Assembly: GCF_008119665.1 (NCBI RefSeq)
Contig: NZ_CP043046.1
Span: 3,100,001 to 3,164,000 of the forward strand
Source of the DNA: Pigmentiphaga aceris
GTDB taxonomy: Bacteria; Pseudomonadota; Gammaproteobacteria; Burkholderiales; Burkholderiaceae_B
Reading direction: 5' to 3'
Length of the DNA: 64,000 nt
Shown here in pieces: positions 13,060 to 28,049 of the stretch (within the stretch, counting starts at the first letter, position 1; every line of letters starts with the position of its first letter). The position numbers were made by a program, and so were the translations under genes. The notes beneath the pieces were generated by a model. That model ran no database searches and had not been told where the DNA came from. It saw nothing but the letters and a program-made list of their open reading frames with translations.

Positions 13060-13064
13060 GTGGT

Positions 13065-13103
13065 ATTTCAATTATGAATTGATGTGCGTTTCATAAATGA
13101 AAC
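13065..13103. promoter_or_regulatory. PrpR-type upstream activating sites
   Basis: The perfect palindrome GTTTCAT-AA-ATGAAAC lies at 13088-13103. A weaker related copy, ATTTCA-N4-TGAATT with one arm mismatch, lies at 13065-13080. They sit about 100 bp upstream of the sigma-54 promoter of prpB, the usual position for enhancer-binding-protein sites. They also lie immediately upstream of prpR. Confidence 0.65.
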
Positions 13104-13243: not shown

Positions 13244-14134
13244 ATGTCCCGTATCCCCTCCCCCGGCGCAGCTTTCCGTCTTGCCTTGGCCGAAGAATCT
13301 CCCTTGCAAGTGATCGGTGCCATCAACGCCAATCACGCCTTGCTCGCCAAGCGTGTCGGCTACAAGGCGATCTACCTGTCGGGTGGTGGAGTTGCTGCCG
13401 GCTCGCTGGGTCTGCCAGACCTGGGCATCAACACCCTGGACGACGTGCTGATCGACGTGCGCCGCATCACCGATGTCTGCGATACCCCGCTGCTGGTCGA
13501 TATCGACACCGGTTTCGGCCCGTCGGCATTCAACATTGCACGTACCGTGAAAAGCCTGATCAAGGCTGGCGCGGCCGCCTGCCACATCGAAGACCAGGCC
13601 GGTGCCAAGCGCTGCGGCCATCGTCCGGGCAAGGAAATTGTCAGCAAGCAGGAAATGGTTGACCGCGTGAAGGCAGCGGCTGACGCCAGGACCGATCCGG
13701 ATTTCTTCCTGATCGCCCGCACCGACGCCATCGCCAGCGAAGGCCTGGACGCCGCCATCGAGCGCTCGCTGGCCTATGTGGAAGCCGGTGCCGATTCGAT
13801 CTTCGCCGAAGCCGCCTACGACTTGGACAGCTATCGCAAGTTTGTTGATGCCGTGAAGGTGCCGGTGTTGGCCAATATCACCGAATTCGGCAAGACGCCG
13901 CTGTTCTCGGTGCAGGAACTGGCCGGTTCAGGTGTGGCCATCGTGCTGTATCCGCTGTCGGCGTTCCGGGCGGCAAACAAGGCTGCCGAGGCCGTCTACA
14001 CCGCGATCCGTCAGGACGGACATCAGAAAAACGTAGTGGATCAGATGCAAACGCGTGAAGAACTGTACGACCGCATCGGGTATCACGCGTTTGAGGCACA
14101 TCTGGACGCGCTATACGAGCAGAAGAAAGCCTAA
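13244..14134 (+). CDS. prpB: 2-methylisocitrate lyase
   Basis: 296 residues, the same length as E. coli PrpB. It cleaves 2-methylisocitrate to pyruvate and succinate in the methylcitrate cycle. The catalytic loop KRCGH places the active cysteine at 124. DIDTGFG and the C-terminal [17 protein letters not shown] and [10 protein letters not shown] stretches match the family. It has a sigma-54 promoter and PrpR sites. Unusually, no prpC, acnD, prpF or prpE follows; the next genes run toward it on the other strand. A related activity such as 2,3-dimethylmalate lyase cannot be excluded. Confidence 0.92.
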
Positions 14135-14245: not shown

Positions 14246-15643
14246 TCAACCCGCCTGCCGACACCCCGCCACCAATGCGGCAAGCGTGTCGCCTTCCATA
14301 ATTCCCGCCCAGATCGCATCACAAGCAGCCACCGGCACGCTGCGCGACGCGTTGTCGATGAGCTTCTGGCGCACGCGGTCTGCGCTGGCTGGCCGTTCAG
14401 CGCTGCCAAGCACTTGCGCAATCTGGTGATGCAACACGCTGCCATCCGCCAACGTGACGCTCAAGTCAGCCGCAAAGCGTGCCGGAAAGCCGGAATCCAT
14501 CCACGGTTCGGCCGTTACATGGCCAGCAAGGGCCACGGCTTGCGCATTGATCTTGATGCCGGTCATCGCATCCAGGTCGATTGGTTGACCCAACAAAGCC
14601 AGCGCCACCGTGTAAGGCAAGCTGTATTTGGCGGCATTGCTGTCACGCGGCGACTGCTTGGCGGACCAGGGTTCAGCAATTACCGTGGCCGCACCCGGCG
14701 CAACCTTGCAGTGTGCAGCAACGATGGCAACGCCGTTCACCTGCGCGCGCAGCAGTTCAGCGGCTTCCAGATACGGGTGGATGTAATGGCAGCAGGGATA
14801 GAACTTGAAGGCCGCTTCGCTCAAAGCCCATCGCTCGCCCAACGTTGTCAGCGAGGCTGACAAGCGGGCTCCGGCCTGCGTGTCGTCGGCGTAAGCCGCG
14901 AAGATACCGTGCTTGCCTTCAAGCACCGTCATCGGCCCGGTCATACCGGACTCGGCCAGCATGGCTGCCCAGATCGCACCGTGCGCGGCCCAACCTGGGT
15001 GCAAGGCCTTGACCTTGGACCCATTGCTGAGAAATTCAAAAATGCCGCTGCCCTGGCTGCCCGCAATGCCTGCGGCATGGGCGGTCTGCTGGGCATCACA
15101 ACCGCGCGCCGTTGCAGCCAGAATCGCTGCTACCACCACGCCGCCTACAGACGTCACCTGAAACCCCCGGCGCTGAAAACTACCCGGCGACGCTTCGCCC
15201 AGCCGCACCAGCAATTCCCAGCCGATGATCGTCAAGCGCAGCGCGTCGTCCAGCGTCAGCCCTTGCTCTTCCGCCACGGCCAGCACCGTGGCCACAATCA
15301 CCGCGCTGCCATGCACGATCGACCCCATGTGGGTGTCGTCGTACTCCAGCGAATGCATGGACGTGCCATTGATCAACGCCGCCACGCTGGCCGGCGCGGG
15401 GTCGGCAAAACCCAGCACAGTCGCCGCACCAGTCTGTGGAGAAGCCCGGCGCAGCTTGGTGAGCATGCTGCGGTGCGCAGGCACCGAAGCCGCCGCCAGG
15501 GCCACGCCAATGGCGTCCGCTAGATGCAGGCGGGCAAGCATGACGACTTCAGCAGGGATCTGGGCAAGATCTAATTGCCGGGCGAAGTCGATCATGCGTT
15601 CGGTGGCTGAAGATGTGGGCATATTGGCAGAGATTGAAGTCAT
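14246..15643 (-). CDS. MmgE/PrpD-family protein (second copy in the cluster)
   Basis: 465 residues. The family contains 2-methylcitrate dehydratase and cis-aconitate decarboxylase, which act on tri- and dicarboxylates without a metal cofactor. Family-like stretches are DTHMGSIVHGSAVIVATVLAV, HPGWAAHGAIWAAMLAESG and KFYPCCHYIHPYLEAA. The ATG at 15643 overlaps the stop of the flavoprotein gene as ATGA, so translation is coupled. The frame stays open far upstream, but that part is a shadow of the flavoprotein gene. It is the last gene of the operon. The sequence does not tell whether it dehydrates, hydrates, isomerises or decarboxylates. Confidence 0.87.
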   Translation of the reverse strand: MTSISANMPTSSATERMIDFARQLDLAQIPAEVVMLARLHLADAIGVALAAASVPAHRSMLTKLRRASPQTGAATVLGFADPAPASVAALINGTSMHSLEYDDTHMGSIVHGSAVIVATVLAVAEEQGLTLDDALRLTIIGWELLVRLGEASPGSFQRRGFQVTSVGGVVVAAILAATARGCDAQQTAHAAGIAGSQGSGIFEFLSNGSKVKALHPGWAAHGAIWAAMLAESGMTGPMTVLEGKHGIFAAYADDTQAGARLSASLTTLGERWALSEAAFKFYPCCHYIHPYLEAAELLRAQVNGVAIVAAHCKVAPGAATVIAEPWSAKQSPRDSNAAKYSLPYTVALALLGQPIDLDAMTGIKINAQAVALAGHVTAEPWMDSGFPARFAADLSVTLADGSVLHHQIAQVLGSAERPASADRVRQKLIDNASRSVPVAACDAIWAGIMEGDTLAALVAGCRQAG

Positions 15644-17049
15644 CCTTCCACACCCGCTGCCGTCTTGCCCGCCATATACCCCAGGCCAATTGCCGTCAGC
15701 AGGCCATTGCCTGACGAATACCCAGCCGCCCCTGCCTGACCGCTGATGCCAGCTGCTGCACCACCACCGGCAAACAGCCCCGGAATCGGTGCACCATCTG
15801 CCCGCAATACGCGTCCGTGCATGTCGACGGCCAAGCCGCCTTGCGTGTGGAACAGCCCTGGCGTCACACGGCAGATCCACAGCCGCCCCTGCAGTGGAGC
15901 CATGCCAAAACGCTTGCGGTTGAATGGGTCCAATCCGGCATCCGGGGAAGCAGCCGCACGGGCATACGCGGCGAGCGTGGCAGACAAGGCCTGAACCGGC
16001 ACGCCAAACACGGCGGCCAATTCCTCCGCACTGTCCGCCGACTTCACGCCGCCGTGGTCCACCAGTTCCTGGAATTCTTCTTCTTTGCTCGCCAGCGCCT
16101 TGATGCGGTCGTCGAAAATCGCATAAACCGACGACTGCTCGGCCAGAACGAAGCGCGCATAACCGGAATACCCCAAGTCTTCGTCGCCAAAGCGCTCGCC
16201 CTGGCTGTTGACCAGAATCCCGCCTTTCTCGATCGTGGTCCACGACAGCAAGGAACCATGCGGATATGCGACTGCTGCATAGCCCTGGTAGGCCTGCATG
16301 TTTGCCATGCCTGCGCCCAACTGCTCGCCCCAGGCCACCGCTTCGCCTTCGCTGCCCAGCGCGCCAAAGTACTCAGCACCGGCGATTTCCGGGCAGTACC
16401 GCTGCACTAGCGCACGGTTTGCGCCGAAGCCGTTGGTGGACAAGATCACCGCCCTTGCGCCGATACGCGATGTCTCAATCCCCTCGCCTTGCACGGCCGC
16501 GCCAACGATTGCGCCGGATTCATCCACATACAGGGTGCTGACGCCTTGGTTGGTCGCCAGCGGAATGTCGCGCTGCGCTGCTGCCGACAGCAGGTCGTCC
16601 ACCAAGTCCTGCCCGCGACGCGACACGGGTGCGTGCAGGCGCGGCACGGTGTGGCCGACGTGGCAGTAGTCGGTGATCAAGGCCATGCGCGCGCCTACTT
16701 TGTCGACCAGCCATTCGCACAGTTCTGCCGACACTTGCGCCATGACGCGCGTCAGTTCGGGCAGTTCACTGGGGCCGGCGGTGCGCTCTAAATCGGCAAT
16801 CATGTGCTCAGGGGAATCGACAATGCCAGCTTCACGCTGAAAACGGCTGCCCGCACCGGGGACTGATCCGGTGCTGAGCGAGGAGTTGCCGCCCGGTCGA
16901 TCACGTTTTTCCAGAATGGCGACTTGCGCGCCGGCATCGTGCGCGGCAATGGCAGCGGCCAGGCCGCAGGCTCCGGCACCGACGACCAGCACGTCTACGT
17001 CCAGGTCCCAGTCGATGTCGGCAGTCAGGCGTTCAATCACGGCTTTCAT
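15640..17049 (-). CDS. FAD-dependent oxidoreductase, fumarate-reductase / ketosteroid-dehydrogenase flavoprotein family
   Basis: 469 residues. The FAD-binding GAGACG motif is at residues 24-29, followed by EKRDRPGGNS. The C-terminal FHTQGGLAVDMHGRVL and GLFAGGGAAAGISGQ segments close the FAD site as in soluble fumarate reductases and 3-ketosteroid dehydrogenases. It probably oxidises or reduces a C-C bond next to a carboxylate or carbonyl. There is no signal peptide or heme motif, so it should be cytosolic. AAGGA lies just before the ATG at 17049. It sits between two MmgE/PrpD genes and overlaps the downstream one by 4 bp. Confidence 0.88.
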   Translation of the reverse strand: MKAVIERLTADIDWDLDVDVLVVGAGACGLAAAIAAHDAGAQVAILEKRDRPGGNSSLSTGSVPGAGSRFQREAGIVDSPEHMIADLERTAGPSELPELTRVMAQVSAELCEWLVDKVGARMALITDYCHVGHTVPRLHAPVSRRGQDLVDDLLSAAAQRDIPLATNQGVSTLYVDESGAIVGAAVQGEGIETSRIGARAVILSTNGFGANRALVQRYCPEIAGAEYFGALGSEGEAVAWGEQLGAGMANMQAYQGYAAVAYPHGSLLSWTTIEKGGILVNSQGERFGDEDLGYSGYARFVLAEQSSVYAIFDDRIKALASKEEEFQELVDHGGVKSADSAEELAAVFGVPVQALSATLAAYARAAASPDAGLDPFNRKRFGMAPLQGRLWICRVTPGLFHTQGGLAVDMHGRVLRADGAPIPGLFAGGGAAAGISGQAGAAGYSSGNGLLTAIGLGYMAGKTAAGVEG

Positions 17050-17231
17050 AAATTCCTTGGGAGTCGGGGTGCGGTCGTGCGGGTGCTCTGACAAACGCAG
17101 TGCCAGCACGACTGAGATAGGGAATCAACAGATGGAGAAATGGCGGGTTCGTTCGTCAGCAACGCGGTCAATCGCGTGGGTAACAGCAGCCGTGCACGGA
17201 ACGTCAGCGAGTTGCATCTTGAGTCGGGAGG

Positions 17232-18827
17232 TCAACGCAACGCAGGCGACGCGAACAGCGCGTCCAGCCAGTTCGCCCACGATGCATTCAAGCCATCAGC
17301 GGGGCCGATTACGGGGTCGGAGACAGCGCCAACAAGGTCCGCCGTTGCAGGATCACTCGACAATCCGTTTGCCTGCCGACGCACAAACGCGTCTTGCTCA
17401 CTTGCCCAGATGGCCGCTTGGTCTGACTTGGCAGAACCTGCGCCGGTCAATGCTCCCTCACCTGCAGCAAGCGCCAAGGCCTGCAGCACCTGTGCCGCCT
17501 GAGGCGCAACCGGTTCGCACAATGCCGCCACCTTCGCCCAGACTTCCGCCTCGCCGAAGGGGCGATCCGGCCCGCCGCGTGCGCTCCAAACCGTCTCTGA
17601 CACGGTGCCTGCGTGCGTAGAGATCGTCACCGTAGCCGGTCGATCGTGGGGTGCCGGGCGTTGCTCGGCAAATGGCACGATCTCGATCAGGCCGCGCAAA
17701 CCCGCTACCCGAGGGTCGTCCAGCGACGCGGCATCGAAGGACTGCACGCCCCCGTCACCATGCACCACAGCCGCTGCCACCGCATGCGGCAGGGAGAACT
17801 TCGCGCCCAGCGTGGTAGCCGGCGCACGATTGTCCAGCCTCAAAGCCAGCGGATGCGCATCGACGCGAATGCCGGTCACCCCTGCCCCGCCCTTTATCGA
17901 CGGATCGCGGGCAATCAGGGCTTGCACCGCTTCGATTGCCGAGTGTGCGTACTGGCAGCAGGCATTCATCTTCTGATAGCCCGATTCCACTGCCCATTCG
18001 CCGTCATCGGCAAAAGCTGTCAGATCGGTCGTGGCGCAACCCAAGCCCGTCACATACACATCAAAAGGCGTGCTGGCCAGACCACCGATGCCCGCACGCG
18101 CATGCTGCACAGCCAACAGCCCGGCATTTGCACCGTGCGCGGCCCACGCGTTGCGAATCAATGACCCCTGCACGGCCTGATTGAACGGCCCGGCCATGCC
18201 AAGCGCCGTAGCACCCGCCACCGCAGATACCAGTTGGTCGGCAGGCAAGCGCATCAGAAAACCCAGGCCTGCTGCTGCACCCACCGGCATCAACAAAGCA
18301 TGCGGGTGCAGCTTCAGGTCCGGGAATCGCCAGGCACGGGCAACTCGGGCTACCGTTTCGTAACCCAGAATCAAGGCACGCAACACATCTTGCGCGCTGG
18401 CACCAGTGGCTTCCGCGCAGGCCAGCAACGCCGGCAGCACATACAGGCCGCCATGGCATACCGCTTTGCGATAGCCCTCGTCCAGCTCGTTCCAGCCCAT
18501 GGTCAAGGCGTTCAAGGCAGCCGCGTCACGCTGCGAGGTACGCGGCCGACCCGGTGAAAACACGCTGACAGACCCTGATTCTGCGTGCGCCATAGTGAAG
18601 GCCCGCATCGCAGCCACTTCCGGCTCCGCCACCGCACTGAAGGCCGCCGCCAGGTTGTCGGCCAGCACCATCGCGCCGCGCGAGCGGGCCGAGGCGGGAA
18701 TATCGGCCCATTCCAAGGAGGCCAGGCGATGCAGGCAAGCCTGGAAAGCCGCAGCAGCGTCCTCGCGCGATGGGTTCAACGCGGTAGCCGCAGCCGTCGC
18801 GCGCGCCGAAGTCAAAACAGCTCCCAC
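17232..18827 (-). CDS. MmgE/PrpD-family protein (first copy in the cluster)
   Basis: 531 residues from a GTG at 18827, longer than the usual 450-480. Family stretches include GWNELDEGYRKAVCHGG, HPHALLMPVGAAAGLGF, IRNAWAAHGANAGLLAV and the KMNACCQYAHSAIEAVQAL substrate region. The start overlaps the end of livF by about 16 bp and has an AGGAAAG ribosome-binding site. It is clearly diverged from the second copy at 14246-15643, so the two probably act on different intermediates rather than being redundant. Its position between the transporter and the flavoprotein places it in the same pathway. The reaction is unknown. Confidence 0.87.
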   Translation of the reverse strand: MGAVLTSARATAAATALNPSREDAAAAFQACLHRLASLEWADIPASARSRGAMVLADNLAAAFSAVAEPEVAAMRAFTMAHAESGSVSVFSPGRPRTSQRDAAALNALTMGWNELDEGYRKAVCHGGLYVLPALLACAEATGASAQDVLRALILGYETVARVARAWRFPDLKLHPHALLMPVGAAAGLGFLMRLPADQLVSAVAGATALGMAGPFNQAVQGSLIRNAWAAHGANAGLLAVQHARAGIGGLASTPFDVYVTGLGCATTDLTAFADDGEWAVESGYQKMNACCQYAHSAIEAVQALIARDPSIKGGAGVTGIRVDAHPLALRLDNRAPATTLGAKFSLPHAVAAAVVHGDGGVQSFDAASLDDPRVAGLRGLIEIVPFAEQRPAPHDRPATVTISTHAGTVSETVWSARGGPDRPFGEAEVWAKVAALCEPVAPQAAQVLQALALAAGEGALTGAGSAKSDQAAIWASEQDAFVRRQANGLSSDPATADLVGAVSDPVIGPADGLNASWANWLDALFASPALR

Positions 18828-19507
18828 AGGCTTTCCTGCTTCAGCAGGTCTTCGCTGGCCCCGTCATAAATGATTCTGCCCGACTTGATGACTACCGCCC
18901 GATCGACATTCTTCAGCGTGGCCTGCACGTTCTGTTCAACGATGATGACGGTGGTGCCGCGTGTGCGGTTGATCTCGCTGATGCTGGCCAGCACGTCACG
19001 CACGATCACCGGTGCCAGGCCAATCGTGGGTTCGTCCAGCAACAGAATCGACGGTTGGGTCATCAGTGCCATGCCCAACGCCAGCATCTGCTGCTGCCCG
19101 CCGCTTAACGACCCGGCGATCTGTTCGCTGCGTTCGGCCAGCAGCGGGAACAGGCCGTAGACCTCGTCGAACGCTTTCTTGCGTGCCGACGCATCATGCT
19201 TCAGCCCGGCAATCGCCAGGTTCTGCTGCACCTGAAGATCACGGAACACGTTATTGCCCTGCGGCACAAAGGCCATGCCAAAGCCCACGTTGTGATGGAC
19301 TTCCGATACCTTGATGGGATTGCCGCGATACGCCACGTGGCCGTCGCAGGTTTCCAGGTCACCCAGGCAGGCCCGCAGCAGCGTGGTCTTGCCCGCACCG
19401 TTGTGCCCGAAGATGCCCAGGCGCTGACCTTCCGGCACGCTCAGGTCCAGGCCGTGCAGCACGTGGAGTTTGCCGTAATGGGCGTTCAAACCCTTCAGTT
19501 CAAGCAT
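18812..19507 (-). CDS. livF: Branched-chain-amino-acid-type ABC transporter ATPase LivF
   Basis: 231 residues, a single ABC domain. Walker A is GHNGAGKTT, the signature is SGGQQQ, and Walker B is SILLLDEPTIGLAP. It begins with LNAHYGKLHVL and has LivF-like size. It energises the LivHM permease at the inner membrane. GAGGA precedes the ATG. It is fifth of the five transporter genes, 89 bp after livG, and overlaps the first MmgE/PrpD gene. Confidence 0.95.
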   Translation of the reverse strand: MLELKGLNAHYGKLHVLHGLDLSVPEGQRLGIFGHNGAGKTTLLRACLGDLETCDGHVAYRGNPIKVSEVHHNVGFGMAFVPQGNNVFRDLQVQQNLAIAGLKHDASARKKAFDEVYGLFPLLAERSEQIAGSLSGGQQQMLALGMALMTQPSILLLDEPTIGLAPVIVRDVLASISEINRTRGTTVIIVEQNVQATLKNVDRAVVIKSGRIIYDGASEDLLKQESLWELF

Positions 19508-19596
19508 TGCTTCCTCTCTTGCGCGAATCGTGGCGAGCTGTCGGTCAGCGGGTAGATCAAGAAATCAATCGCCGTCACAAACATGGCACCCATCGC

Positions 19597-20394
19597 TCAT
19601 TGGCCGAAATAAAGCTCGGCCAACACCTTGCTTTCCAGCAAGGTGGCAACGTCGCCGCGTTCAAGAATGCGGCCCTGGGCCATGAAGACCGCGCTGTTGC
19701 ACAGATCGCGGATGAAGGACACGTTGTGCTCCACCACGCACACCGCCCGGCCCGATGCCGCCTCTTCCCGCACGATGTCGCGCATGGTTTCGTAGGCAAC
19801 CCCTTCCACCCCCGCCATGGGTTCGTCCAGCAGCAGCACCGGCCCATTGCTCATCAGTGCACGCGCCAGGCCCACCAGCTTCTGTTGACCAAAGGTGATG
19901 TCGTTGACGTTGGCATCGGCCAGCGCGTCCAGCTTCATGCGTTTCAGAATCAAGTGCGCACGTTCACGTAATTCGGCTTCCGCCCGGCGCACGGCAGCGG
20001 GCGACAGAATCAACCGCAACAGCGATTCGCCGGGGTAATGCGACGGTGCAACCAGCATGTTTTCCAGCACGGTCAGCGAGCCGAACAGCCGCATGTGCTG
20101 CCAGGTGCGCGCAACCCCAACACGGGCACGTCGGTACAGCGGCAAACCAAGTAAAGACTGCCCGCCCAGCACAATGCTGCCGGCATCGGCCGCCACCACA
20201 CCGGAAATCAGGTTGAACAAGGACGTTTTGCCCGCACCGTTTGGCCCGATCAGCCCCAGGATTTCGCCGCCGCGAATTTCCAGGTCGATCTTGTCGGCCA
20301 CCACCACACCACCAAAGCGTTTGCACACGCCCTTGATGTCGAGAATGGGCGCAGATGCAGCAACACCTGCCTGCAAGGTTTGCGTAGCAGCCAT
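19597..20394 (-). CDS. livG: Branched-chain-amino-acid-type ABC transporter ATPase LivG
   Basis: 265 residues. Walker A is GPNGAGKTS, Walker B is VLLLDEPMAGV, and the long insert after RTWQHMRLFGSLTVLENM is typical of LivG. The C-terminal part (VEHNVSFIRDLCN) is also family-like. The canonical LSGGQ signature is replaced by ITFGQQK, as is common in LivG proteins. The ATG overlaps the livM stop codon as TGATG, so translation is coupled. Confidence 0.95.
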   Translation of the reverse strand: MAATQTLQAGVAASAPILDIKGVCKRFGGVVVADKIDLEIRGGEILGLIGPNGAGKTSLFNLISGVVAADAGSIVLGGQSLLGLPLYRRARVGVARTWQHMRLFGSLTVLENMLVAPSHYPGESLLRLILSPAAVRRAEAELRERAHLILKRMKLDALADANVNDITFGQQKLVGLARALMSNGPVLLLDEPMAGVEGVAYETMRDIVREEAASGRAVCVVEHNVSFIRDLCNSAVFMAQGRILERGDVATLLESKVLAELYFGQ

Positions 20395-21260
20395 CAGTGG
20401 CCTCCCTCGACGCGCTTGGCCGGTGCGATCAAGCCCTGCGGACGCAGGAACAGGAACAGAATCACCAGCGAGGTGAAGATCACGCCTTGCAGCGGGCCCA
20501 TGATGCCCGAGGGCAAGTTCAGGAAAGTGATGGCCTCAGGCAGCAACAGCAGCAGCACCGCACCCACCACCGGGCCCAGCACCGAACCCATGCCGCCCAC
20601 CACCACCATCGTCAGAATCATGGCGGATTGCAGAATCTGGAATTGATCTGGCGTGACGTATTGGTAGTAGTAGGCGTACAAGCCACCGGCCACACCGGCC
20701 ATGCCCGAGCCCAGCGCAAAGATGGCGATCTTAATGTTCATGGCGTTACGGCCTAGTGCCAGAAACGCCAGTTCGTCATCCCGCATGGCCTTGATCGCAC
20801 GGCCATACGGACCGCGCACCAGCGCCCGCACGGCAAGGACCACAATCAGCGCAACCCCCAGCGACACACCCGCAAAGACCAGATTGCGCTGTCCCGACAC
20901 CACGTTGGGAATGCCACCCAGACCGCTGGCACCGCCCACGAAGTCCAGGTTCTTGATGATTTCCAGCAAGCCCAGCTGGAAGCCGATGCTGGTGATCAGC
21001 AGGTAATCGCCAGAAATTCGCAGCGACGGCAAAGACAGCGCAAACGACGCCACCAGGGCCACAAAGAACCCGGCGATCACACTCAAGACCGGATGCACGC
21101 CGAACTTCACGCTGAGCACACCCACGGTGTAAGCACCCAGCGCAAAGAAAATCGGGTGCGCAATGCTGATCAATCCGCCGAAGCCGATGATCAGGTTGAA
21201 GCTGGAAGCCAGGATGATGTAGAGACCCACCAACACCAGCATTGACGCGACATATTCCAT
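20394..21260 (-). CDS. livM: Branched-chain-amino-acid-type ABC permease LivM
   Basis: 288 residues with about eight or nine hydrophobic helices. FNLIIGFGGLISIAHPIFFALGAY is the family N-terminal region (quoted here only as its general location, residues 20-43). GRAIKAMRDDELAFLALG is the conserved cytoplasmic EAA-like loop. Inner-membrane half of the permease with LivH. AGGAG lies 7 bp before the ATG. It is 15 bp after livH. Confidence 0.94.
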   Translation of the reverse strand: MEYVASMLVLVGLYIILASSFNLIIGFGGLISIAHPIFFALGAYTVGVLSVKFGVHPVLSVIAGFFVALVASFALSLPSLRISGDYLLITSIGFQLGLLEIIKNLDFVGGASGLGGIPNVVSGQRNLVFAGVSLGVALIVVLAVRALVRGPYGRAIKAMRDDELAFLALGRNAMNIKIAIFALGSGMAGVAGGLYAYYYQYVTPDQFQILQSAMILTMVVVGGMGSVLGPVVGAVLLLLLPEAITFLNLPSGIMGPLQGVIFTSLVILFLFLRPQGLIAPAKRVEGGH

Positions 21261-21275
21261 TTATTGGCTCCTGGC

Positions 21276-22205
21276 TTAAGCGTCTGCGGGCGTGGCGGAC
21301 ACGGCTGGCGCAGCCGTTGGCTTTTTGGCGCGTCGCGTCAGTCGAACCCCCTGCGGGAAGAACAGAATCGTGATGAACAGCAGCGCGTACAGAATCAGGC
21401 TCTGCCAGGCCGACGGAATCACCAGAATGCTGAACGCGCGCAGCAAGGCCAGGAACACGGCCGCAACCGCTGCGCCAAACACATTGCCCATGCCGCCCAG
21501 CAGGGCCGCAATCACCGCGAACAACATCATTTCCAGCGGCGTGTTGGGCACCATCGAGGCACGCGTGCCGAACAGGTACATGCCTGCGGTGATCAGAATC
21601 GCCGCAACCACAAAGGTCAGCGCGTATACCCGGCGCACGTTAATGCCATACAACCGCGACAGGTGCGGGTTATCGGCCGCTGCCAGCATGAACTGGCCTT
21701 GGCGCGAGCGCTTCATGATCAGGTACAGCAAGCCCATCAAGACAATGGTGGTGGCAATGGCTTTCAAGTCCCACTCGCTGACGACCACGCCGCCCACGAT
21801 GTGTGACGCCGACATCAAGGTGGTGGCCAGGGACACCGGTTCGGTACCGGCTGCCATCGCAAGCAGGTACTGCACCAACTCTGAGACCACCAGGGTGAAG
21901 ATGAAGAAGGTCAGCGGCGGCGAATGGCGGCGGCGGAAGGTCTGCAAGCCCCACACTTCCATGGCCAGCGCAGCGGCAATCGCGGCGGCCGCACCCAGGG
22001 CAATCGCCACCGGGGCTGGCAAGCCGAATTTCTGGATTGCCGCATACATCGTGTAATACGCAATGCCCATCAGGCCAGCCTGGGCGAAGTTCCAAACCTT
22101 GACGACTTTGAGGACCAGCGCAAACGCAGCCGCCAACAGCACCGCGTAGCTGGAATTGGCCAAGCCGGTCCAGAAGATTTGCAACAGGGTCTGGATATCC
22201 AGCAT
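21276..22205 (-). CDS. livH: Branched-chain-amino-acid-type ABC permease LivH
   Basis: 309 residues, multi-spanning. KVWNFAQAGLMGIAYYTMY and the loop MLAAADNPHLSRLYGINVRR match LivH permeases. The ATG at 22205 follows GGGAG with 6-bp spacing; 12 extra upstream codons are open but unlike the family. An inverted repeat separates it from the binding-protein gene. The substrate of this Liv-type system need not be an amino acid; many members import aromatic or cyclic amide compounds. Confidence 0.93.
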   Translation of the reverse strand: MLDIQTLLQIFWTGLANSSYAVLLAAAFALVLKVVKVWNFAQAGLMGIAYYTMYAAIQKFGLPAPVAIALGAAAAIAAALAMEVWGLQTFRRRHSPPLTFFIFTLVVSELVQYLLAMAAGTEPVSLATTLMSASHIVGGVVVSEWDLKAIATTIVLMGLLYLIMKRSRQGQFMLAAADNPHLSRLYGINVRRVYALTFVVAAILITAGMYLFGTRASMVPNTPLEMMLFAVIAALLGGMGNVFGAAVAAVFLALLRAFSILVIPSAWQSLILYALLFITILFFPQGVRLTRRAKKPTAAPAVSATPADA

Positions 22206-22224
22206 CACTGCTCCCGGTAGAGAA

Positions 22225-22257
22225 GGCGGCGGCCGATGCATTCATCGGCGCGCCGCC
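22225..22257 (-). promoter_or_regulatory. Strong intercistronic hairpin between binding-protein and livH genes
   Basis: The stem is GGCGGC plus GCCGATG paired with CATCGGC plus GCCGCC, 13 bp with a one-base asymmetry and a CATT loop. It begins 5 bp after the binding-protein stop codon and ends before the livH ribosome-binding site. There is no T-run. This fits mRNA 3'-end stabilisation or partial attenuation, so that binding protein exceeds permease. Confidence 0.65.
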
Positions 22258-22262
22258 TGGTC

Positions 22263-23420
22263 TTATTGAACGGTCGCGACCGGGACGAATTGCCCGCCCT
22301 TGACCTCGAACAGGTACACCGGCTTGTTCACGCGGTGGTCTGCACCGACCGTCAGCTTGCCGGTCATGGGCAGGTCGAAGTTGGCCACTTCCACCAGCGC
22401 CTTGCGCATGTTCGGGCCAGTCAGCGGCTGCTTGGTCTTCAGCAGATGACCATACAGTTCACCGATCAGGTAAGGCATGTCGTACAGGTACTGGGTGTAC
22501 GGCAGACCATTCGGGATGCGGTTTTCGGCTTTCTTCCAGCGCTCGACAAATTCCGCAATACGCGGGTTCTGCTCTGCCGACGGGGCCAGTGCCGACACCA
22601 GCAGGCCTTCGGCGGCTGCACCCAGCTGCGCGATGATCTTCGGGTTGTAGCCAGCGGAATACGTGGAAATCGGCTGCTTCAGGCCCAGTTGACGCAGCTG
22701 CGCAATCACTTGCGGCAGGTCAGACACCAGGCCCTGGATGTGGATGATGTCGGCGTTCGACGTACGCACCTTCAGCAGCGCACCGGTGTAGTCGGTGGAC
22801 TGCGCATCGTAGGCCTCGTAGGACACCACCTTGCCGCCCATTTTCTCGAAGGCGTCGCGGTAGATCTTCGCGCCTTCCACGCCGCTGTCGTTGTGGATGT
22901 ACAGCACGGCGGCACGCTCCTTCTTCAGCGTTTCGCGGGCGTAGCGGGCTTGCGCCACCACGTCTACGTCAGCCAGCGGATAGGTCGTGTACACGTAGTC
23001 GCCCAGCTTCGCGATTTCCGGCGAATTGGCCCCCACGCTGAGCGCCAGCACTTCGCTGCGGTTGGCAATCGGTGCCACGGCCTTCACCACCGCGCTCCAG
23101 GCGGTACCGAACACCGGTACCTTGTCGACGTTGACCAGGCGGTTGACCGCGTTGATGCCCAGGCGCGGATCGGCTTGGGTGTCCAGCAGGATCATTTCCA
23201 GCTTGTGGCCGTCGATGCCGCCTTTGGCATTGATGTCTTCCACTGCCCACTGGGCCGCCTTGGCCTGATCCGCACCGAACAGGGCCTGCGAACCGGTCAG
23301 CGGCATGGCCAGACCGAAACGCAAGGGTTCCTTGGCTTGCGCCAGGACCTGACCGCCAAGACCAAAACTGGCGGCAATCACTGCCGCCGACAAAATAAGA
23401 GTTCTACGCAAAGGCTTCAT
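22263..23420 (-). CDS. Liv-type ABC transporter periplasmic substrate-binding protein
   Basis: 385 residues with a Sec signal peptide (MKPLRRTLILSAAVIAASFG onward, cleavage expected near VLAQA, residues 26-29). The mature part has the type-I periplasmic-binding fold: LRFGLAMPLTGSQALFG, INAKGGIDGHKLEMI, and a C-terminal PVYLFEVKGGQFVPV. It captures the substrate in the periplasm for LivHMGF. GGGAA precedes the ATG. It lies 88 bp after the isochorismatase-like gene and is the first transporter gene in the operon. Confidence 0.93.
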   Translation of the reverse strand: MKPLRRTLILSAAVIAASFGLGGQVLAQAKEPLRFGLAMPLTGSQALFGADQAKAAQWAVEDINAKGGIDGHKLEMILLDTQADPRLGINAVNRLVNVDKVPVFGTAWSAVVKAVAPIANRSEVLALSVGANSPEIAKLGDYVYTTYPLADVDVVAQARYARETLKKERAAVLYIHNDSGVEGAKIYRDAFEKMGGKVVSYEAYDAQSTDYTGALLKVRTSNADIIHIQGLVSDLPQVIAQLRQLGLKQPISTYSAGYNPKIIAQLGAAAEGLLVSALAPSAEQNPRIAEFVERWKKAENRIPNGLPYTQYLYDMPYLIGELYGHLLKTKQPLTGPNMRKALVEVANFDLPMTGKLTVGADHRVNKPVYLFEVKGGQFVPVATVQ

Positions 23421-23508
23421 GGCAATGTTCCCGGTTTATGGCATGGATCGAAGACGTGGGGGTGGAAAAACTATTGGGGCAAAGGTCTGCGGGTAATTCG
23501 GTCCAGCT

Positions 23509-24216
23509 TCAGCGCCCAACCTGGTTCAGGTTGGCGATCAGGGTGTCAGTCGTGCCAACGTCGGCATACTTTTCAGACATATCGAACAGGTTCACGGCAT
23601 GGGACACCTGGCTGCGGTCATACACCGCGTCCTGCGGCACGAACACCTTGAAGTTCAAGGAAAACGCATCGACCACGCTGCCGCGCACGCAGCCGCTGGT
23701 GGTGCAGCCGGTAACGATCAGGCTGTCGGCCTGAAGGTCGATCAAGTGGCTGGCCAAGGCGGTGCCGAAGAAGGCGCTGGGGTGCTTTTTCGGCAGCAGC
23801 ACGTCACCCTCGCGGGGGGCTACTTCCTTCACGAAGTCGTAGCCATGCGCCGGAATGTTCATGATCGCGGGCACTTTTTCCGCCAGGCGACCGCCGTCCG
23901 TCGCTTTCTTCGGCGCCACGTGCGGGTACAGCACCGGCCAGCCGCGCTCGCGGAAGGTGGCCAGCAGCTTTTCGATGTTCGCTACCGCCTTCCAGCCCAC
24001 GTCTCCGCAGCTGGTGGGGAATTCCTTGATCGATTCCCAGAACGGTTGCGGCGTGGTGCCCACGGTGCGGTACTGCACGTCGATGATCAGCAGTGCCGGG
24101 CGCACGCCCAGGCCAGACGGGCGGCCGAAACCTGCGGCGCGATAGGCGCGCTGTTCTTCGTCGCTGATGATGCCGTCCCAAGGTTTCGGGGGGCTTGCTT
24201 GCTTGTTTTCGCTCAT
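23509..24216 (-). CDS. Isochorismatase-fold cysteine hydrolase (amidase/N-carbamoyl hydrolase type)
   Basis: 235 residues. The catalytic triad is visible: Asp46 in LLIIDVQ, a lysine in KKHPSAFFGT and the nucleophile Cys in CTTSGCVRG. Relatives include N-carbamoylsarcosine amidase, maleamate amidase and nicotinamidase. The KHPSAFFGT and TTSGCVR forms are typical of the N-carbamoylsarcosine-like group. The ATG overlaps the amidohydrolase stop as ATGA, so translation is coupled. This suggests it hydrolyses the ring-opened product made by that enzyme. The exact amide is unknown. Confidence 0.88.
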   Translation of the reverse strand: MSENKQASPPKPWDGIISDEEQRAYRAAGFGRPSGLGVRPALLIIDVQYRTVGTTPQPFWESIKEFPTSCGDVGWKAVANIEKLLATFRERGWPVLYPHVAPKKATDGGRLAEKVPAIMNIPAHGYDFVKEVAPREGDVLLPKKHPSAFFGTALASHLIDLQADSLIVTGCTTSGCVRGSVVDAFSLNFKVFVPQDAVYDRSQVSHAVNLFDMSEKYADVGTTDTLIANLNQVGR

Positions 24217-25586
24217 GCTTTGTCCGTATTCATGGTGCGAGCCAGGTACTGTCCGTAGCCCGGCCTGCCGGTGATCTTGCCGTCCTGCATCACGGTTTCG
24301 CCGCGCACGATGGTGCGAACCGGCCAGCCTTTCAGGTCCCAGCCGTCGTACAGGCTGTAGTCCGAGTAAGAACCCAGTTCTTTTGCACGCACCACGCGAT
24401 TCTTTTGCAAGTCCACCAGCGTCAGGTCAGCGTCCGCACCCACGTCCAGCCGGCCTTTTTGCGGCAGATTGAAGATGTCGGCCGGGCGTCGGGTCAGCAG
24501 ATCGGCAATGCGCGACAGCCCCAAGCGACCCTTGTGATAGCCCTCGGATAACAGCACCGGCAGAATCGTGGCGGTACCCGGAAAACCCTGGGACGCGAGC
24601 CACAGGGTCCGTTCCTTGGTCGCCTTCTTGCGCGGCACGTGGTCGGACGCCACCACGTCGATGCTGCCGTCGCGCAGGCCTTCCCACATGGCCTCGATGT
24701 CGTCCTTGGACCGGAACGGCGGGTTGGCCTTGCCCAGCGGACCCAGGTCGCTGTCTTCGTCGTGGGTCAGATAATGCGGGCAGGTTTCCACGTAGACGTG
24801 TTCGTAACGCTCGCGCCAGCGGCGTACCTCGTTCAGCGCCATTCGGGTGCTCAGGTGCGGAATGTAGATCTGCGCGCCAAGGTGTTCGGCAAACATCATG
24901 GCGCGCACGCAGCTTTCGGCTTCCGTGAATGCCGGTTTGGCATCGGACCAGTCACGCAGCGTGTCGCGGCCTTCGGCCTGGAAGCGTTGGCGGATGCGGT
25001 TCACGATCTCGATGTTCTCGGTGTGGCAGACCACTTTCACGTCGCCCAGCTTGGCCGCCTGAGCCAGCAGGTCGTAGAAGTAGCCGTCGTCGGTGCCGTC
25101 CAGCCCCAGATACCGCCCTTCTTCGCCCTTGAAGTTCATGAAGTACTTGAAGGACGTGACGCCGTACTGCTTCACGTATTCCGGCAGTTCGCGCACGTGC
25201 AATTCATTGGCCACGCTGAAGTGAAAGCCGTAGTCCACGTGGGCGCGCGTGCGGGCGTACTCCTGCTCGCGGCGATACACGTCGGTGTAGTCCTCGTTGT
25301 TCAGGAAGTAGCCCAGCACGGTCGTGAAACCGCCCTGCGCGGCGTACACCGTTTCAGTTTCGTATTCCGTGATCTTTTCGCCGAAGCCGAAGTGGATGTG
25401 CGCGTCGATCAGGCCGGGAAACACATGCAGGCCGTGGGCCGAAACTTCCGGCATGCCTTCTTGAACAGGCGTGCCGGGCAGCAGCCGCGCGGCGATGCGT
25501 CCGTTCTGCACCAGCAGGTCCAAGGCCTGTCCGTCGCTGTCGGTGTCCACCAGCACACCGCCACGCAACACAAAATCCGTAGCCAT
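24213..25586 (-). CDS. Hydantoinase/dihydropyrimidinase-type cyclic amidohydrolase
   Basis: 457 residues of the dinuclear-metal amidohydrolase superfamily. HxH at 63 and 65, Lys147 in TSFKYF as the probable carboxylated bridging lysine, later histidines in CHTEN and PHLST, and the catalytic Asp in ASDHVP are all present. It should open a cyclic amide, imide or hydantoin. The closing part lacks the usual long C-terminal tail of D-hydantoinases. The ATG at 25586 overlaps the upstream GTPase gene stop as TGATG. The preceding TTG at 25589 is unlikely. Allantoinase or dihydroorotase activity is less likely given neighbours. Confidence 0.88.
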   Translation of the reverse strand: MATDFVLRGGVLVDTDSDGQALDLLVQNGRIAARLLPGTPVQEGMPEVSAHGLHVFPGLIDAHIHFGFGEKITEYETETVYAAQGGFTTVLGYFLNNEDYTDVYRREQEYARTRAHVDYGFHFSVANELHVRELPEYVKQYGVTSFKYFMNFKGEEGRYLGLDGTDDGYFYDLLAQAAKLGDVKVVCHTENIEIVNRIRQRFQAEGRDTLRDWSDAKPAFTEAESCVRAMMFAEHLGAQIYIPHLSTRMALNEVRRWRERYEHVYVETCPHYLTHDEDSDLGPLGKANPPFRSKDDIEAMWEGLRDGSIDVVASDHVPRKKATKERTLWLASQGFPGTATILPVLLSEGYHKGRLGLSRIADLLTRRPADIFNLPQKGRLDVGADADLTLVDLQKNRVVRAKELGSYSDYSLYDGWDLKGWPVRTIVRGETVMQDGKITGRPGYGQYLARTMNTDKA

Positions 25587-26794
25587 CAACGACTCTCCGA
25601 ATGAGGGGGGAAAAGACTGTCCAGGGCGGCCAAGTCGCCAGGCAGCAGGCCCGGCTCGTCAATACGCAGGGCAGCCAGGCTGCGGGTGAGCCAGGCGCGG
25701 TCAAGTCCTACGCCAATGCACACAAGCCGCGAACGCGGGTCCGAGTCGGGCCATTGCGCGACCGGCTCGGGACGATGGAAGACCTTGCCCACCGTCTGAA
25801 GGAAAATTTGCGGCGGCTGCGCGTCGGACATGCGCAGCAAGCCTTTACAGCGCAGCAGCTCGTCGCCGTAGTGACGCGACACCAGGTTCCACCAGGCGGC
25901 AACGCCGGGCCAGGTGGACGGGGTATCTATATAGAAGCTCTCGGTCGAGACGCGTTCGTGGAAGCTGTGGGTGTGGTCGTGCGGATGATTCTTTGCATCG
26001 CCCCCTTCCTGTCCGTGCTTGTCCTGGGCGTGTGCTGTGTCGTGCGAATCAAGCCCGTCGCTGCCGTCAGCGTGATGCGCGTGGTCATGCCCACAGTCTT
26101 GACAGTGTTCGTGCGAATGGTCGTGTGCGTGTGCTTCGCCAAGCGCGCCGTCGCCCTGCCCCAGCACCGCATCCCACTGCCGATCCCCACCGCTGCGCGT
26201 GAAGATCGCTTCCGAGCCCTCGCCTTCTGTGCAGGTCGTGACCATTGCCATCGGGTTCAGACGCTGAACCGCCGCACGGGTCGCCGCTACCGTGCTGGCA
26301 TCCGCCATGTCCGATTTCGTAATCACCACCACCTCAGCCGCCGCAATCTGCCGCACAGCTTCCGGTTGGCTGTCGAACTGACGCACGCCTTGCATGCCGT
26401 CCACCGTCACCACCACCTGATTCAGCCGCACCACGGCCGTCAGAATCTTGTCGCCCAGCAGCGAATGCAGAATCGGCAGCGGTTCAGCCAGCCCCGTGGT
26501 TTCGATCACGATGCGCGTCAGCGGCGTGGGCAGACGGCTGGCCTGCGCGATCAAGTCCAGCAGCGTTTCGCGCAAAGACCCGCTCAGCGTGCAGCATAGG
26601 CAGCCTGACTCCAGCAGCATGACGTTGTCGGCCACTTCGGCCAGCACCAGCTGGTCGATACCGATATCACCCACTTCATTGACGATGACCGCCGTGCCCT
26701 TGGACGCAGGCGAACGCAGCCAGGCGTTCAGCAGCGTGGTCTTGCCGCTTCCCAGAAAGCCGGTCAGCAGGTCGCAGTCAATACGCGAAGCCAT
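25586..26794 (-). CDS. COG0523 (CobW/YjiA-type) GTP-dependent metal chaperone with His-rich insert
   Basis: 402 residues. Walker A GFLGSGKTT is at 12-20, the metal-binding CLCC motif at 65-68, and the guanine motif TKSD near 160. A histidine/aspartate-rich stretch occupies about residues 220-272, typical of zinc-handling members. The CobW C-terminal domain follows. It is the first gene of the operon and overlaps the amidohydrolase by one base. I infer metal delivery to that enzyme; a general zinc-stress role is the alternative. The GTG-rich upstream region holds AAGG before the ATG. Confidence 0.9.
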   Translation of the reverse strand: MASRIDCDLLTGFLGSGKTTLLNAWLRSPASKGTAVIVNEVGDIGIDQLVLAEVADNVMLLESGCLCCTLSGSLRETLLDLIAQASRLPTPLTRIVIETTGLAEPLPILHSLLGDKILTAVVRLNQVVVTVDGMQGVRQFDSQPEAVRQIAAAEVVVITKSDMADASTVAATRAAVQRLNPMAMVTTCTEGEGSEAIFTRSGGDRQWDAVLGQGDGALGEAHAHDHSHEHCQDCGHDHAHHADGSDGLDSHDTAHAQDKHGQEGGDAKNHPHDHTHSFHERVSTESFYIDTPSTWPGVAAWWNLVSRHYGDELLRCKGLLRMSDAQPPQIFLQTVGKVFHRPEPVAQWPDSDPRSRLVCIGVGLDRAWLTRSLAALRIDEPGLLPGDLAALDSLFPPHSESR

Positions 26795-27158
26795 GAGCCT
26801 TCACCACTCGAACCGAGGTTCATCAAGGGCCTGAAGGCGTCGCGCGCCTGTCAGACCCCGCGTTGTTCTTTTTGAAGGCGGCACGTGGGCCACCTTTGTC
26901 TCCGTTATTTCTTCGTCAGGCCGTTCATGTTTTCGTAACGACAAGCGAGACAACGTTTCGATAAGCATAACGACGAAATTAAAGTTACGCTAGATGGAAT
27001 GACACGATCAGACAGAAATTGGCACCCTGCTCCAGGCTGGGAAGCCAATCGTGTGTCAGTGATCCACGCGCAATCCCGCGATGTACGGCCAGTTGGCAAT
27101 GCAGTGCCAGCAGCCGGCACCACGGGAGAGCGGCCACCCCGACCTAGCAGGAAGAGAA
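26795..27158. promoter_or_regulatory. Divergent intergenic region between cobW-like operon and iclR
   Basis: 364 bp without a convincing gene. The two promoters for the catabolic operon and the IclR gene must lie here. A TAACGAC direct repeat (26936-26942 and 26968-26974) is spaced 32 bp apart, about three helical turns. It sits in the most AT-rich part of the gap and is the best operator candidate. I could not define a clear -35/-10 pair. Confidence 0.4.
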
Positions 27159-28049
27159 ATGCGTCAAAATGCCCGCCTCCCCGTGCAAACCCACGCCTAC
27201 ACCCGGACGCCTCCCTCCTCTATGGTCGAAAAAAACGCCAACTCCGTCGAAGCCGTGAAAGTCGCGGTGCGTGTGCTGGATGAATTGGCGCTGCAACAGC
27301 GCGCAATGGGCGTCACCGAGTTGGCCGACGCGCTGGGCGAAACCAAGCCGCGTGTGCACCGGCACCTGTCCACGCTGAAAGAAATGGGCCTGATCGAGCA
27401 GGACCAGTCCACCGACCGCTATCACCTGGGCTGGCGCGTGTTCCAGCTGGGCGAAGCCGCTGGCAACCAGTTCGACCTGCGCGCCCGCGCCGAGCCCTAC
27501 CTGATCCGCATCCGCGATGAACTGAAAGAAACCGCCGTGTTGGCCGTGCCGATCAACGGCATGCCAATGGTGATTGCGACCGCCGACAACATCTACGCGC
27601 GGATCTGCATCAGCGTAAAGCCAGGCAACCGGCCGCTGCCACATTGCTCGGCACTGGGCCGCCTGACGCTGGCGTTTTCACCGCGCGCCATGTGGGACAC
27701 CCAGCTGTCGATGCCGCTACTGGCCGAAACCGAAACCTCTTTGATCGACCCGGTGAAAATCCGCGAGCGCCTGGAGGTCATCCGCAACCAGTATTTCGAG
27801 GTGTCGAACGGCGAAATGATGCTGGGCGTGAACACCTTGGCCGTGCCTATTTTCCGAGACGGTGAACAGCTGGCTGGTGCACTGAGCATCGTCGGCTCGA
27901 TCCAGAATATTCCCGAGCCGCCGCGCCGCGCGCAGGTGGAATTTTTGCAGCACTGCGCAGCGGCATTGTCGGCGCAGCTGAACAGCAACGCCTACGCTGA
28001 TTGGCATGCCCGCCAGAGCGCCAATGAAATCCTCGGACGCCTGCCCTGA
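27159..28049 (+). CDS. IclR-family transcriptional regulator
   Basis: 296 residues. An N-terminal winged HTH (LALQQRAMGVTELADALGET, then the LIEQDQSTDRYHLGWRVF wing) is followed by the IclR effector domain with a NGMPMVIATADN and a C-terminal AGALSIVGS segment. The ATG at 27159 has a good AGGAAGAG ribosome-binding site. An alternative ATG at 27222 lacks one, though it starts closer to the HTH. It diverges from the 12-kb catabolic operon, its likely target. The inducer is probably a pathway intermediate. Confidence 0.9.
   Translation: MRQNARLPVQTHAYTRTPPSSMVEKNANSVEAVKVAVRVLDELALQQRAMGVTELADALGETKPRVHRHLSTLKEMGLIEQDQSTDRYHLGWRVFQLGEAAGNQFDLRARAEPYLIRIRDELKETAVLAVPINGMPMVIATADNIYARICISVKPGNRPLPHCSALGRLTLAFSPRAMWDTQLSMPLLAETETSLIDPVKIRERLEVIRNQYFEVSNGEMMLGVNTLAVPIFRDGEQLAGALSIVGSIQNIPEPPRRAQVEFLQHCAAALSAQLNSNAYADWHARQSANEILGRLP

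Follow-up and report, generated by a model that had tools for sequence, protein, structure and literature searches.

Cyclic imides are metabolised in bacteria by an imidase followed by a half-amidase, as in Blastobacter and Pseudomonas, and the mammalian imidase is dihydropyrimidinase. A gene cluster at positions 14246..28049 of a 64,000-nucleotide stretch of Pigmentiphaga aceris DNA (contig NZ_CP043046.1; the whole stretch is called the window here) resembles this metabolism in that a cyclic amidohydrolase is proposed to open an imide to a half-amide and an amidase to convert the half-amide to a dicarboxylate. It differs in that the amidase has the isochorismatase fold and in that a GTPase, an importer, a flavoprotein, a pair of MmgE/PrpD proteins and a lyase are added. 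We put the chances at about even that the cluster is an operon for the breakdown of a small cyclic imide. The enzyme families are known and their combination is new. A literature search, with subscription papers sparsely covered, gave no description of this gene set among the matches listed, in keeping with the sequence-only reading, which knew of no pathway with this exact set; a term search of the main text of PMC4016543 found no mention of isochorismatase or MmgE.

Other described systems share single elements with the locus. The isochorismatase-fold Cys amidase of the window, Iso, is related to NicF of the aerobic nicotinate pathway (PDB entries 3ot4/3uao, which we take to be NicF, maleamate amidohydrolase); unlike that pathway, the window set has no ring hydroxylase or dioxygenase, and hydratase-type enzymes replace maleate isomerase. 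As in the 2-methylcitrate cycle (PrpB, PrpD, AcnD, PrpF), hydration of the MmgE/PrpD or aconitase type would be coupled to PrpB-type cleavage, and an extra prpB adjoins the cluster; however, the cluster has no citrate synthase, its two MmgE/PrpD proteins (MmgE1 and MmgE2) are not PrpD by NCBIfam, and the host keeps a separate prpB-prpC-prpD operon together with acnD-prpF. The flavoprotein has the FAD_binding_2 fold of flavocytochrome c3 (Fcc3), urocanate reductase and the 3-ketosteroid and cyclohexanone dehydrogenases, but unlike those enzymes it combines the absence of a heme domain with the replacement of six Fcc3 residues and two invariant Tyr. The ring opener, Hyd, belongs to the same superfamily as the ergothioneine enzyme ErtD (hydantoin-5-propionate amidohydrolase), although its 225 bits are well under the cut-off of 650.

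Open reading frames and Pfam/NCBIfam matches bear out the gene set and order first described from the sequence, namely eleven minus-strand genes and a divergent plus-strand IclR gene. The minus strand carries a COG0523/CobW-family GTPase (25586..26794; Pfam cobW and CobW_C, PF02492 and PF07683), the hydantoinase/dihydropyrimidinase-type cyclic amidohydrolase Hyd (24213..25586; NCBIfam D-hydantoinase at 278 bits, below the equivalog cut-off of 393), Iso (23509..24216; Pfam Isochorismatase, 109 bits) and a LivK-type periplasmic binding protein (22263..23420; Peripla_BP_6, 209 bits). LivH-type (21276..22241) and LivM-type (20394..21260) permeases and a LivG-type ATPase (19597..20394) follow, identified by position, translation and synteny with no hidden Markov model scan, and then a LivF-type ATPase (18812..19507; ABC_tran), MmgE1 (17232..18827; Pfam MmgE/PrpD fold, ELDEG class), the flavocytochrome c/fumarate-reductase-like FAD flavoprotein (15640..17049, ATG at 17049; FAD_binding_2) and MmgE2 (14246..15643; Pfam MmgE/PrpD fold, E(Y/F)DDT class). 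The top NCBIfam models for LivF are UrtE and LivF, both under cut-off; urea import was rejected, since UrtE scores highest yet fails its cut-off. The overlaps reported earlier are present as TGATG at COG0523/Hyd, where the Hyd start codon overlaps the COG0523 TGA, and as ATGA between the flavoprotein and MmgE2, and Hyd and Iso also overlap by 4 nt. The earlier picture is corrected by an 88-nt gap that precedes LivK, and 182 nt separate MmgE1 from the flavoprotein ATG. Terminator-like sites number 13 against a shuffled mean of 14.0, none of them in the gaps among the eleven genes, and no sigma-70-like promoter was predicted against a shuffled mean of 2.9.

A search of 200 family genomes for matches to Hyd at E <= 1e-80 gave hits in 33 genomes at 40 listed places, which fall into two clear identity classes: 13 places at 66-100% (window included) and 27 at 43-47%, with none between; seven genomes have both. 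At 1e-90 in the order, 4 of 399 genomes matched, among them that of the window and one belonging to the 43-47% class. Neighbouring genes took the label of their top tblastn match in a reference set of our choosing, genes outside that set being unlabelled. The close orthologues comprise 29 loci whose Hyd is 64-88% identical, the window excluded; five duplicates (L037, L038, L061, L062, L063) and the short re-fetches L017-L020 and L032-L036 were left out, and Variovorax SRS16 and Methylobacterium currus, known as search matches only, are in no locus count. COG0523 adjoins Hyd in 28 of the 29, and Iso lies at most 12 kb from it in 27 (L012 carries another isochorismatase-family gene and L016 none labelled). 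Flavoprotein labels occur in 16 loci, at least four Liv genes in 16, MmgE/PrpD in 13 (10 of them with at least two copies), a lyase in four and an aconitase in one, and several of the contigs stop within the cluster. Nine control loci with other amidohydrolases (32-39% identical to the nearest reference) had no Iso, COG0523-adjacent, FAD, MmgE, aconitase or lyase label; these controls are L026 and L053-L060, the latter being eight of the nine phylum-search matches beyond the window's own, and are not a random sample. L053-L060 proved to be other amidohydrolases without the partners.

The gene set recurs in Alcaligenaceae, on a Variovorax plasmid, on Methylobacterium plasmids and, more diverged, on a Haloferax plasmid, and because the same partners accompany it across these taxa it is not a chance grouping. 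On the plasmid of Variovorax PBL-E5 an IclR orthologue (77% identity) heads a rearranged cluster in the order Liv-MmgE-FAD-MmgE-COG0523-Hyd-Iso, so that every piece is present in a different order and the content survives rearrangement. The search in other genomes that the sequence-only reading had proposed thus finds the set conserved, and both the synteny and the conserved content beside an orthologous IclR gene back its view of one catabolic unit. In the three diverged loci (Methylobacterium nodulans, M. aquaticum and Haloferax gibbonsii) Iso, the flavoprotein, two MmgE/PrpD genes and Liv genes are always present, a lyase is found in two and COG0523 in none; both Methylobacterium sets lack COG0523 and add a PEP-mutase/isocitrate lyase (ICL)-family lyase. 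The Haloferax locus adds a LeuCD-type dehydratase, an HMG-CoA-lyase-type lyase and a CoA transferase, possibly another solution to hydration plus cleavage. The nine loci fetched for the paralogous, 43-47% type (seven from the 27 family places and two plasmid matches, one picked for the aconitase in its annotation) carry Iso in nine, aconitase in nine, a PEP-mutase/ICL-family lyase in nine, COG0523 in seven and the flavoprotein in three.

The COG0523 protein has the features of the metallochaperone GTPase family, with Walker A GFLGSGKT, the CxCC motif as CLCC and a CobW_C domain, as well as 17 His within residues 201-285, and is probably a metallochaperone for the amidohydrolase. Aligned to D-hydantoinase 1k1d, Hyd has a complete binuclear metal site (H63, H65, K147, H188, H244 and D315, which we take to be four His, the carboxylated Lys and the Asp), kept in all 50 aligned relatives, so the ring-opening metalloenzyme suggested earlier is supported. 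At the positions of Tyr155 and Ser288, presumably the substrate residues of D-hydantoinase, Hyd has F152 and N288, as do all 29 close orthologues; the first position is Tyr in the paralogous type (9/9) and Asn, Asn and Tyr in the diverged loci, and the second is Asn in all 41 cluster-type proteins and Ser in eight and Asn in one of the nine controls. Hyd is proposed to be a ring-opening imidase. Iso has the D46-K143-C176 triad of a cysteine amidase of the NicF/N-carbamoylsarcosine amidohydrolase type, which upholds the predicted isochorismatase-fold hydrolase. Of the 31 isochorismatase-family rows in group A, 28 keep C176 (the others have Ala or Gly), as do 9/9 of group B and 3/3 of group M. 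Its nearest PDB matches are 3ot4/3uao at 108 bits and N-carbamoylsarcosine amidohydrolase at 101 bits, scores so nearly equal that the fold alone cannot separate amic from ureido acids, and it falls far short of NCBIfam RutB (43.5 of 378 bits) and biuret hydrolase (37 of 370 bits). Iso is proposed to be a half-amide (amic acid) hydrolase.

The flavoprotein aligns with flavocytochrome c3 over most of its length, but none of six Fcc3 active-site residues is kept: H365, E378, R381, R402, H504 and R544 correspond to Y258, W271, I274, Y295, F401 and Y445 (numbered on a query that starts one codon ahead of the ATG). Among these six, as we take it, are the Arg that binds the carboxylate and the Arg that donates the proton. 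The two Tyr that replace R402 and R544 do not vary in any of 30 rows (25 distinct loci, the window and five duplicates being among the rows) or in any of the 32 proteins of alignment A5. The AlphaFold2 (AF2) model (predicted local distance difference test, pLDDT, 87) confirms the FAD_binding_2 fold, with template modelling (TM) scores by query of 0.81-0.85 to most flavocytochrome c3 fumarate reductase/urocanate reductase chains and 0.72-0.75 to 3-ketosteroid and cyclohexanone dehydrogenases. The fumarate-reductase-like label of the sequence-only reading holds for the fold and not for the active site, and a fumarate reductase or succinate-type dehydrogenase was rejected on the lost residues and the two Tyr. 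A free succinate-type substrate is disfavoured because the two Arg are lost. Tyr in such positions recalls the ketosteroid dehydrogenases, which desaturate beside a carbonyl, and for both reasons the flavoprotein is proposed to act on the ring. It may be a ring dehydrogenase, with the C-C dehydrogenation of the original scheme moved ahead of ring opening, or it may act later. In M. nodulans, electron-transfer flavoprotein genes lie about 2 kb after the amidohydrolase (L025:15707-17435), and their product is a possible electron acceptor for the cluster flavoprotein.

Neither MmgE1 nor MmgE2 carries the full set of residues that we take to define cis-aconitate decarboxylase (IRG1/CAD), D93, T97, H103, H159, K207, K272 and Y318: MmgE1 has E, G, H, H, R, K and a gap, and MmgE2 has E, T, H, Q, K, K and W. 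Decarboxylation of this kind was rejected on that ground; the earlier alternative of hydration or decarboxylation survives in its first half, the second being less likely. Both proteins also fall outside the PrpD equivalog, only NF042438 being matched (23.5 and 33 bits against 950) with TIGR02330 not listed, far below the 876 bits of the host's true PrpD. The nearest PDB matches of MmgE2 are Bacillus subtilis IRG1 and IDS-epimerase, and the AF2 model of MmgE1 (pLDDT 86) has CAD, IDS-epimerase and PrpD as its top folds at TM 0.57-0.70 by query; as with the flavoprotein, the predicted structure confirms the fold and indicates no substrate. At the K207 position 44 MmgE/PrpD rows (duplicate loci included) divide into 25 Arg and 19 Lys; the H159 position is His in 22 of the 25 Arg rows and Gln in 18 of the 19 Lys rows, and the two class signatures are largely conserved, with exceptions. 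MmgE1 belongs to the Arg class and MmgE2 to the Lys class, each without what the other carries, which would fit a heteromeric enzyme and proves nothing; against a heteromer, Haloferax has two Arg-class proteins, and in L040, L042 and L044 an Arg-class protein is the only one seen. We propose MmgE2 as a putative hydratase and MmgE1 as its subunit or partner.

Cleavage by a lyase of the PrpB/PEP-mutase family probably follows hydration, an end favoured by the lyases of the cluster variants and by an extra prpB beside the window cluster. This gene (13244..14134, plus strand), outside the cluster coordinates and 111 nt from MmgE2, exceeds the NCBIfam cut-offs for methylisocitrate lyase (526 of 353 and 422 of 354.4 bits). 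It is one of two prpB copies in the genome, 94% identical, the other (genome 2338297-2339163) lying in a prpB-prpC-prpD operon that has an aconitase-family gene behind it, with acnD-prpF elsewhere; a strong prpB occurs in 89 of 121 family genomes and two copies in only three. A PEP-mutase/PrpB-family gene is present in all nine paralogous loci and both Methylobacterium loci, and in Hydrogenophaga a bona fide prpB lies 19 nt behind the Iso gene. The three cluster lyases scanned besides the window prpB have PrpB-like scores, isocitrate lyase not being listed. As the last step of the window pathway the extra prpB is suggestive.

In the pathway that we propose, LivKHMGF would import the compound, IclR would sense it or a product, and the COG0523 protein would deliver metal to the amidohydrolase. 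The flavoprotein would introduce a C=C bond, perhaps while the ring is still closed, Hyd would open the imide to a half-amide, and Iso would free ammonia to leave a substituted maleate- or aconitate-like acid. The MmgE/PrpD proteins, or aconitase in the paralogous cluster type, would hydrate this acid to a malate- or isocitrate-like hydroxy acid, which a PrpB/PEP-mutase-family lyase would cleave to pyruvate or glyoxylate and a carboxylic acid. Alkylmaleimides and succinimides or citrazinate-type imides are the substrate candidates.

Several observations weigh against this scheme. The core is COG0523-amidohydrolase-isochorismatase and the remaining parts vary, the flavoprotein being undetected in 13 and MmgE/PrpD in 16 of the 29 close-orthologue loci (some on cut contigs), and L012, L021, L046 and L048 have CoA-ligase genes instead or additionally. 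The partnership of Hyd with an isochorismatase is not wholly exclusive: some 2 kb from the amidohydrolase of control L026 is an isochorismatase-family gene, under a label of its own, and a GTP-binding protein is encoded some 9 kb away. The amidohydrolase, Iso, the flavoprotein and the MmgE/PrpD proteins are all under their NCBIfam cut-offs, so each reaction is assigned by family, and a ureido substrate for Iso is possible. Single amino-acid enzymes lie nearby, an L-serine ammonia-lyase in the Variovorax stretch and a class-III aminotransferase in Shinella. Both PrpB proteins of the window genome are equally close to that of Hydrogenophaga (75% each), and no prpB was found beside the cluster in the Alcaligenaceae relatives as far as their fetched flanks reach, mostly a short way past MmgE2.

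The original proposal named cyclic imides or hydantoins, and of these the imide fits better. In a hydantoin or dihydropyrimidine route, which we regard as unlikely, Hyd would give an N-carbamoyl acid, Iso would remove the carbamoyl group and the flavoprotein would oxidise the amino acid or desaturate the skeleton. The closest curated models of Hyd (dihydropyrimidinase, D-hydantoinase, allantoinase), the resemblance of Iso to N-carbamoylsarcosine amidohydrolase and weakly to RutB and biuret hydrolase, and the weak match of the flavoprotein to L-aspartate oxidase (56 bits) all point that way, but every one of these NCBIfam models is below cut-off, and the Asn found at the Ser288 position throughout the cluster type speaks against it. 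No aminotransferase, amino-acid dehydrogenase or other amino-acid-processing label recurs in cluster-type loci, in a limited label set without ammonia-lyases, which is the chief point against a hydantoin and favours an imide that yields a di- or tricarboxylate; the next conserved steps act on carboxylates, and an amino acid would need no MmgE/PrpD, aconitase or PrpB-like lyase. A six-membered imide of the citrazinate or 2,6-dioxopiperidine-4-carboxylate type, leading through aconitamide or tricarballylamide to aconitate, isocitrate and finally succinate plus glyoxylate, is a special case of the imide reading, and as the particular substrate we think it quite improbable. An aconitase stands near the paralogous amidohydrolase in 9/9 fetched loci, accompanied by an ICL/PEP-mutase-family lyase, and the aconitase of L049, the one scanned, scores above the AcnA equivalog cut-off. 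The Hydrogenophaga cluster has a gene annotated as TcuA some 10 kb away, and TcuA models score the flavoprotein below cut-off. However, a housekeeping aconitase would be enough, the scanned lyases are PrpB-like, MmgE1 and MmgE2 lack the decarboxylase residues, and the labelled neighbourhoods contain no pyridine hydroxylases, a weak point since the reference set had none. Citrazinate as sole substrate was demoted to this rival, the lyase being PrpB-like and the matches listed including no catabolic-gene literature.

The variable composition of the loci could also mean that two independent modules adjoin, COG0523-Hyd-Iso and a Liv-MmgE-FAD-MmgE set for an unrelated carboxylate. The loci without a detected flavoprotein, the 182-nt gap and the other partners of the amidohydrolase core in L007, L012, L014 and L022 would agree with such a division, which we nonetheless find very unlikely: Burkholderiales, Methylobacterium and Haloferax all have the two halves together, though arranged in different orders, the orthologous IclR gene is shared with Variovorax, the gaps contain no terminator-like site, and a palindrome upstream of both arrangements is suggestive. 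Least probable in our estimate is a lactam or pyrrolinone with one ring carbonyl, the isochorismatase acting on a different amide. Two loci that share the flavoprotein subfamily, L028 and L030, do replace Hyd with an ATP-dependent HyuA/HyuB (hydantoinase/oxoprolinase) and have an Iso-fold protein without the Cys, but window-type Iso keeps its Cys and the window's opener is of the metal-dependent type.

If the preferred imide reading is right, one conceivable role is to degrade alkylmaleimides and succinimides, hematinic acid among them, that are left from the pyrrole rings of chlorophyll and heme. After import, the flavoprotein, which has lost its carboxylate-binding residues, would desaturate the intact succinimide ring, Hyd and Iso would give a substituted maleate, a heteromeric MmgE1/MmgE2 hydratase would hydrate it, and a PrpB-type lyase would release pyruvate and a carboxylic acid. 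We hold this route to be a long shot, as nothing in the analysis links the cluster to tetrapyrroles; if true, it would use every conserved part and explain the varying hydratase and lyase families. One study found hematinic acid in leaves and could not detect maleimides; it cites earlier work that reported both from senescing leaves and the sediments of lakes (PMC7318184). The matches listed by the literature search included no bacterial pathway for hematinic acid or maleimides, a gap that degradation of imides by this cluster would fill.

Whatever its substrate, the cluster defines a recurrent module of metallochaperone, ring opener, amidase, flavoprotein, exchangeable hydratase and lyase, which occurs in Betaproteobacteria and has related forms in Methylobacterium and a haloarchaeon. 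Biocatalysis could draw on it for candidate imidases and amic-acid hydrolases, its two unlike MmgE/PrpD proteins are a pair amenable to testing, and it counsels caution with the automatic names dihydroorotase, fumarate reductase and 2-methylcitrate dehydratase.

The IclR-family regulator (27081..28049, plus strand; HTH_IclR and IclR_C) presumably regulates the cluster. The divergent intergenic region (26795..27080) is a candidate IclR operator, with a palindrome of the type GWWATNNNATWWC in the relatives and a weak version in the window. Across 13 regions, on which it was both derived and tested, this palindrome has 7 mismatches in total, against a mean of 30 and a minimum of 23 in 200 mononucleotide shuffles; the window's own upstream region has 2. 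It is suggestive of a putative upstream element shared by both gene arrangements. Two longer patterns are nearer the shuffled range (59 against a mean of 67.2 and minimum of 58; 34 against a mean of 41.4 and minimum of 35). GntR genes, not IclR, flank the Methylobacterium sets, so the regulator family varies. Divergent from the extra prpB lies a prpR-like sigma-54 activator gene (11026..13071, minus strand; PrpR_N and Sigma54_activat), which scores 591 bits for TIGR02329 (cut-off 499) and 530 for NF011953 (cut-off 703).

Among the relatives, the paralogous aconitase-bearing cluster is commoner than the window type in the same bacterial family, and at L049, L050, L051, L052, L064, L065 and L066 it comprises GntR, PEP-mutase/ICL lyase, aconitase, amidohydrolase, isochorismatase and COG0523 genes. 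A third cluster type, with HyuA/HyuB and the Cys-less isochorismatase-fold protein, lies at L028:5304-13281 and L030:4106-11236. Two apparent genes at L007:3952-5322 and L007:6540-7697 match no Pfam family and were set aside as readings in the wrong frame. The Variovorax copy (L021:20658-29347) is carried on the plasmid of a strain from linuron-contaminated soil and adjoins catechol meta-cleavage genes. On an Aminobacter MSH1 plasmid (L026:10029-15215), a 35% amidohydrolase relative stands beside dipicolinate-synthase-like, tautomerase and isochorismatase genes; Shinella and Phyllobacterium plasmid matches have the same dipicolinate-synthase neighbour, and this neighbourhood is probably another ring-opening pathway.

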